Shown: in pieces, positions 10,661 to 11,418 of the stretch | Layout: every line of letters begins with the position of its first letter | Position numbering within the stretch: position 1 is the first letter of the stretch | Origin: Malus domestica | Lineage: Eukaryota; Streptophyta; Magnoliopsida; Rosales; Rosaceae | Assembly (NCBI RefSeq): GCF_042453785.1 | Contig: NC_091673.1 | Location: 9,581,501-9,645,500, forward strand | Length of the DNA stretch: 64,000 nt | Direction of reading: 5' to 3' | The notes under the pieces: model-generated | Database searches by the model: none | What the model was told of the DNA's origin: nothing | The model's input: the letters and a program-made list of their open reading frames with translations, nothing else | Made by a program: the position numbers and the translations under genes

Positions 10661-11418
10661 GGGGTGGGAAATTTTGCCAACCGAACCATACCGGTCGGCT
10701 CATAATGGTATGGTATAGTTTTGGCATTTTTTCATAATTGGTTGGCATTTTACCGAACCGACAATTAATGGCATGGCTTTGGTAATTGATTTTGTATGCC
10801 GGCGGTATGCCATACCTACCAATATATATATATATATATATATATATTTTTTCTATTTAGATATTTTAGGTATTTTTTTCATGCTTGACTCCTCAGTTTT
10901 AGGGTTTAGAAAATAAATAACTCCTTAGTTTTAGGGTTTAAAAAATACGTGCTTGACTTCTCCCTACTGCTATAAATCAAAATCTGATTGTCCATACTCT
11001 ATGCCACAAGCCAATTGGAATTGGGGTGCAGCGAAATTGATGGCATGGAATGCATGTGAGACTCACTAATATACTAAATAACCACAAGGATCCCAAACTC
11101 CCATACGCGAAGCGACTTGTCATCGCTGGAAGTAACAAACCTACGGTTATTGTCCACAAATGTAATTGTATTCACATCACCCAAATGCTGATCATACTCT
11201 TGCAAACCTTCAGTTATTATCCACACTTTACTTATTTGCAAACCACCAGTTTGTGCCATTTACCAATCGAACCAGCCAATAATTTTGGCTGAACCAATTT
11301 TTGGCAACCGCAAGAAGACGATTGGCAAGCGGTAATTGATTTTTGGTAATTATGTATATATGGCTGGCAGATGGTTCAAGAAATTTGGCACGGTTTGCCA
11401 ACCAAACCCAACCCTAAT
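10661..11418. mobile_element. Non-autonomous hAT-like transposon carrying a gene fragment
   Basis: Inserted in repeat C. Ends are inverted: the left begins GGGGTGGGAAATTTTGCCAA and the right, in reverse complement, reads AGGGTTGGGTTTGGTTGGCA. Flanking 8-mers AAAACTTA (10653-10660) and AAATCTTA (11419-11426) differ at one base and fit the 8-bp target duplication of hAT elements. Subterminal regions repeat the words GGTATGG and TTTGGTAATT. There is an (AT)n run at 10823-10849. No transposase is visible. The middle holds a minus-strand piece of PRP17/CDC40 (separate entry), so this looks like a gene-fragment-capturing element. The superfamily rests on duplication size and the GGGTGGG-type ends only. 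Confidence 0.65.
10965..11245 (-). pseudogene. Captured PRP17/CDC40 (WD40 splicing factor) fragment
   Basis: On the minus strand the sequence reads [18 protein letters not shown], then [18 protein letters not shown], then YISESHMHSMPSISLHPN and finally SMDNQILIYSSR. These are consecutive WD40 blades near the C-terminus of pre-mRNA-processing factor 17 (PRP17/CDC40), which acts at the second step of splicing. At least two in-frame stops interrupt it, one after WEFGILVVI and one between LVA and SMDNQ. The fragment is about 90 codons, with no introns visible inside it, and lies wholly inside the transposon at 10661-11418. It is a non-functional exon copy. Identification is strong; how it was acquired is inferred. 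Confidence 0.8.

Follow-up and report, generated by a model that had tools for sequence, protein, structure and literature searches.

A probable non-autonomous hAT transposon carrying a fragment of the splicing-factor gene PRP17 in Malus domestica

A 758-bp element of Malus domestica, at 10659-11416 of the analysed stretch of 64,000 nucleotides (hereafter the window), is very probably a plant hAT transposon, non-autonomous and Pack-hAT-like, that has captured a fragment of PRP17 and is comparable with maize Ds2 or Ds-l4. This reading is supported by its inverted ends, its 8-bp flanks, the internal position of the PRP17 match, and a host repeat that is present in both a split and an unsplit copy. 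What is new here is that the captured PRP17 piece is edged by short duplications.

Defined by end symmetry, the element runs TAGGGGTGGG...CCCAACCCTA, and the order of sequences at 10651-11424 is ATAAAACT, TAGGGGTGGG ... CCCAACCCTA, ATAAATCT. The left terminal inverted repeat (10659-10668, plus strand) is TAGGGGTGGG and the right one (11407-11416) reads TAGGGTTGGG on the minus strand; nine of the ten positions match, with one mismatch, as in short hAT-type ends. Ends of hAT elements often begin with C/TAGGG, and those found here are of the short TAGGG type. The direct repeats on either side, ATAAAACT at 10651-10658 and ATAAATCT at 11417-11424, are 8 bp long and identical at 7/8 positions, consistent with the 8-bp target-site duplication of hAT transposons. 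In the preliminary description, the element was placed at 10661-11418; its length of 758 bp, inverted ends and 8-bp flanks hold, with a 2-bp shift in placement. Because TA is present on both sides, an 8-bp repeat with one mismatch is obtained either way and the flanks do not fix the limits; it is end symmetry alone that favours 10659-11416 over 10661-11418. Long terminal inverted repeats were also considered and rejected, since the 230-bp ends align at a score of 33, not above shuffles (mean 31.2, maximum 55 in 500 shuffles preserving base composition only), and no inverted similarity above shuffles was found in these 230-bp ends beyond about 10 bp from the element termini.

A lone end is not rare, because a looser 10-bp end pattern (at most one mismatch) has 18 sites in the window, two of them the element's own ends and 16 outside it. 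The sole exact match to this pattern outside the element is CAGGGTTGGG at 3907-3916, on the minus strand. The argument therefore rests on the ends occurring in combination with 8-bp flanks and a host repeat, not on single ends. No other TAGGGGTGGGAAA or TAGGGTTGGGTTT end was found in the window within one mismatch, blastn (E up to 0.1) returned no second copy of the element there, and no other family members, with or without the PRP17 fragment, were found in these 64 kb.

The host repeat is uninterrupted at 10046-10261 (plus strand), its end at 10261 being placed from a primer-binding-like site, and a second copy at 10555-11510 (plus strand, outer limit approximate) is split by the element. 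Directly after the left copy, 10262-10273 reads TAGTATCATAGC, which agrees at 10 of 12 positions with the complement of initiator tRNA-Met and in this respect resembles a primer-binding site. With copies of about 0.2 kb each and an interior of about 0.3 kb, the pair possibly corresponds to the 5' and 3' LTRs of a small TRIM-like retroelement, for which no target duplication was established. When the flanks of the element (10556-10658 and 11425-11508) are joined, they align across the insertion point with 10047-10257, with 132/178 identical positions and 42 gap positions. Of these, 33 form a single gap that stems from a tandem duplication of 35 bp in the left copy; the other nine are further gap positions. 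The low identity between the copies suggests that the host element is old. Joined flanks retaining both 8-bp copies scored 53.5 against the left copy, compared with 52.5 when one was retained, so that the alignment by itself shows no extra 8-bp copy. This sequence comparison thus supports insertion at the 10658/11425 point, whereas taken alone it does not establish the target-site duplication. The earlier proposal that the element sits inside a repeat with an uninterrupted copy at 10046-10255 is borne out, since that copy can be aligned with the joined flanks across the break.

The PRP17/CDC40 fragment, from the WD40 domain, lies on the minus strand, from 11202 down to 10960 (243 bp), and comprises 81 codons without a frameshift and with two in-frame stops; these 81 codons of host coding sequence lie between the terminal repeats, as in Pack-TYPE elements. 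When the translation, with X at the two stops, was compared with the PDB, PRP17 chains were the five best of 413 matched (60 shown), with E-values from 3.6e-33 to 2.1e-25, the best one being ungapped over 83 residues. The sixth was a generic WD40 protein (E 2.6e-25), and the next were 8ro0_W, an unnamed WD protein, and 5gm6_n, a Prp17, at about 1e-23; Pfam assigned WD40 to the fragment (E 2.1e-12). A minus-strand PRP17 WD40 piece with stops, as first described, is thus upheld by the PDB match and the two stops, its length being corrected from about 90 to 81 codons. An apparent extension, KVWIITEGL upstream of QEYD, was rejected as PRP17 coding sequence, being the VDNNRRF codons duplicated in another frame. 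A search of 11203-11900 and 10260-10959 in six minus-strand frames detected neither PRP17 nor WD40 at E up to 1, although a short intron-split piece could have escaped it; four of the six frames had no match and two had one unrelated match each (E 0.0028, to a cerebellin/glutamate receptor chain, and E 0.99). A PRP17 match running past the ends, which had been proposed as grounds for rejecting capture, was accordingly not seen in these frames. It is unlikely that the locus is instead an ordinary repeat containing a simple PRP17 pseudogene, duplicated or processed, with its ends arisen by chance. The 243-bp core has no intron-like interruption, which would suit such a pseudogene, but which is compatible with capture from DNA as well as from RNA. 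Against it, no PRP17 match was found in the six neighbouring frames, the flanks join into the other host-repeat copy, and in the sequence inspected the fragment is not followed by any poly-A tract of more than seven A. No report combining PRP17, a transposon and a pseudogene was found in a limited literature collection.

Short duplications adjoin both edges of the PRP17 fragment. On the minus strand, a duplicate of the VDNNRRF codons at 11203-11225 directly adjoins the first PRP17 codon, in a different frame, and is identical at 20 of 23 positions to the in-place copy at 11136-11158. Near the 3' edge of the fragment, short direct repeats span 10882-10962, with a 28-bp unit at 10888-10915 and 10920-10947 (26/28 identical, 32-bp spacing) and a 13-bp unit at 10882-10894 and 10950-10962 (12/13 identical). 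A direct-repeat scan of 10860-11416 (offsets of 20-80 bp, scores of at least 8) gave scores of 22 (the 28-bp unit), 14 (the VDNNRRF pair), 10 (the 13-bp unit), 10 and 8, while the best scores of 200 dinucleotide shuffles averaged 7.7 and peaked at 10, with five shuffles reaching 10 and 113 reaching 8. A possible degenerate third copy of part of the VDNNRRF stretch (11236-11251, minus strand; 14/16 identical to 11200-11215) is weak, because its score of 10 was reached in 5/200 shuffles. The edge duplications are not among the output of Tandem Repeats Finder. In a control over the window (23-base pairs with at least 19 matches, at offsets of 25-100 bp, with a low-complexity filter), 19 near-duplication clusters were found, two of them in the element, so the edge pattern exceeds the background without being unique, and is only moderately unusual.

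The right subterminal region (11240-11416, plus strand) is rich in TTGGC/GCCAA (6) and AACC/GGTT (9), each count being reached by none of 1000 shuffles. In the left one (10659-10820, plus strand), enrichment is modest: GCCAA/TTGGC occurs three times (reached by 45/1000 shuffles), GAACC/GGTTC twice (12/1000), GGCA/TGCC six times (13/1000) and AACC/GGTT four times (211/1000). The PRP17 part is without enrichment (GCCAA/TTGGC, 565/1000; AACC/GGTT, 185/1000). The Ac/Ds subterminal repeat AAACGG does not occur on either strand of the whole element, and no transposase coding sequence was noticed in a six-frame reading of it. An AT dinucleotide run of 13 copies lies at 10822-10847. It has been suggested that such an element could be a source of small RNAs acting on the real PRP17 gene. 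The plus-strand RNA is predicted to fold somewhat better than shuffles (z -2.26; 0/20 as stable), and one survey considers small RNAs that target the gene-like portions of elements of this type (PMC8903248). Nevertheless, the predicted fold includes the AT run and the element has no long inverted repeat, and this role is considered very improbable. That a multi-copy hAT family might spread the antisense-oriented PRP17 fragment, its small RNAs tuning a core splicing factor, is hardly credible, even less so than the role itself.

Other repeats are present in the window. These include a 361-bp tandem duplication (1136-1856; 96.4% identical) within a retroelement reverse-transcriptase region, an array at 43999-48046 in which direct and inverted repeats are nested (for example, 44477-45970 recurs at 45863-47348 with 82% identity), a self inverted repeat at 13258-13484 (82%) resembling a hairpin MITE, and an apparently young dispersed pair, 29779-29929 and 41585-41736, with 96.7% identity over 152 aligned positions. 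Seven of the nine window reading frames submitted had Pfam matches, namely reverse transcriptase, AP2, DUF2301, Rieske, GT47 exostosin, P450 and disease-resistance winged helix, a combination that points to a flowering plant. At Rfam gathering scores, the whole window yielded nothing but one tRNA; a tRNA-Leu (AAG) gene lies at 22641-22723 on the minus strand.

Capture of gene fragments by hAT elements is already in print, for grapevine in 2008, for maize Ds in 2011 and in a Pack-TYPE survey in 2022. The earlier remark that it is "much less often described" for hAT-like elements is a fair one, but must be read beside these three papers, which do report it (PMC2528002; PMC3260210; PMC8903248). 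Maize Ds2 and Ds-l4 share with the element hAT membership, short ends, 8-bp duplications, a non-autonomous nature and filler that includes gene fragments, which were found in two Ds2 and nine Ds-l4 elements, the latter with a modal length of about 1 kb (PMC3260210). The element differs from them in having no AAACGG and in its donor, PRP17, and the two maize examples figured carry introns; some Ds1 elements also lack AAACGG (PMC3260210). The grapevine Hatvine-6 transduplications are likewise hAT elements with a variable interior, which matches host exons and introns, but they share transposase coding sequence, whereas none was noticed in the element (PMC2528002). Pack-hAT elements of the rice and maize survey are also non-autonomous, with 8-nt duplications and coding fragments (PMC8903248), in contrast with which a single copy of the element has been seen so far, in the 64-kb window.

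Altogether, the strong motif enrichment of the right subterminal region, the edge duplications, whose scores of 22 and 14 exceed the highest value in 200 shuffles (10), and the published precedents count for the Pack-hAT-like reading. Counting against it are the modest enrichment on the left, the lack of AAACGG, the join scores of 53.5 and 52.5, the lack of a second copy in the window and the near-duplications elsewhere in it. In the proposed mechanism, a gap would have opened in an ancestral element, either left by excision or arising where a fork had stalled; gap-filling synthesis would have switched to the PRP17 gene, PRP17 DNA would have replaced part of the ancestral element, and slippage may have occurred at the junctions during filling. 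The edge duplications would fit such slippage, or template switching, in gap-repair capture. Template-switch models of capture have been argued for animals (PMC8277862), and in rice filler DNA was described at 58 of 94 putative transposon excisions (PMC4423477). An element of this kind would move by transposase from another element, and the copy at 10659-11416 would have decayed since. We lean towards capture of PRP17 before insertion at 10659. A version of the same reading, in which the PRP17 piece came after hAT insertion by gap filling on site and the two parts never transposed together, is a tentative possibility of some substance: only one copy is known from the window, and on-site gap filling is argued, in the same study, to be the usual route for single-copy animal Pack-TIRs (PMC8277862), but the features described here fit capture before insertion equally well.

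On the Pack-hAT-like reading, the copy has decayed and most likely lacks a coding function, and by itself the element is an ordinary fossil. It does provide one readable case of hAT gene capture with edge duplications, of relevance to the way in which fragments are captured, and, if the family is multi-copy, a housekeeping splicing gene would be being shuffled.
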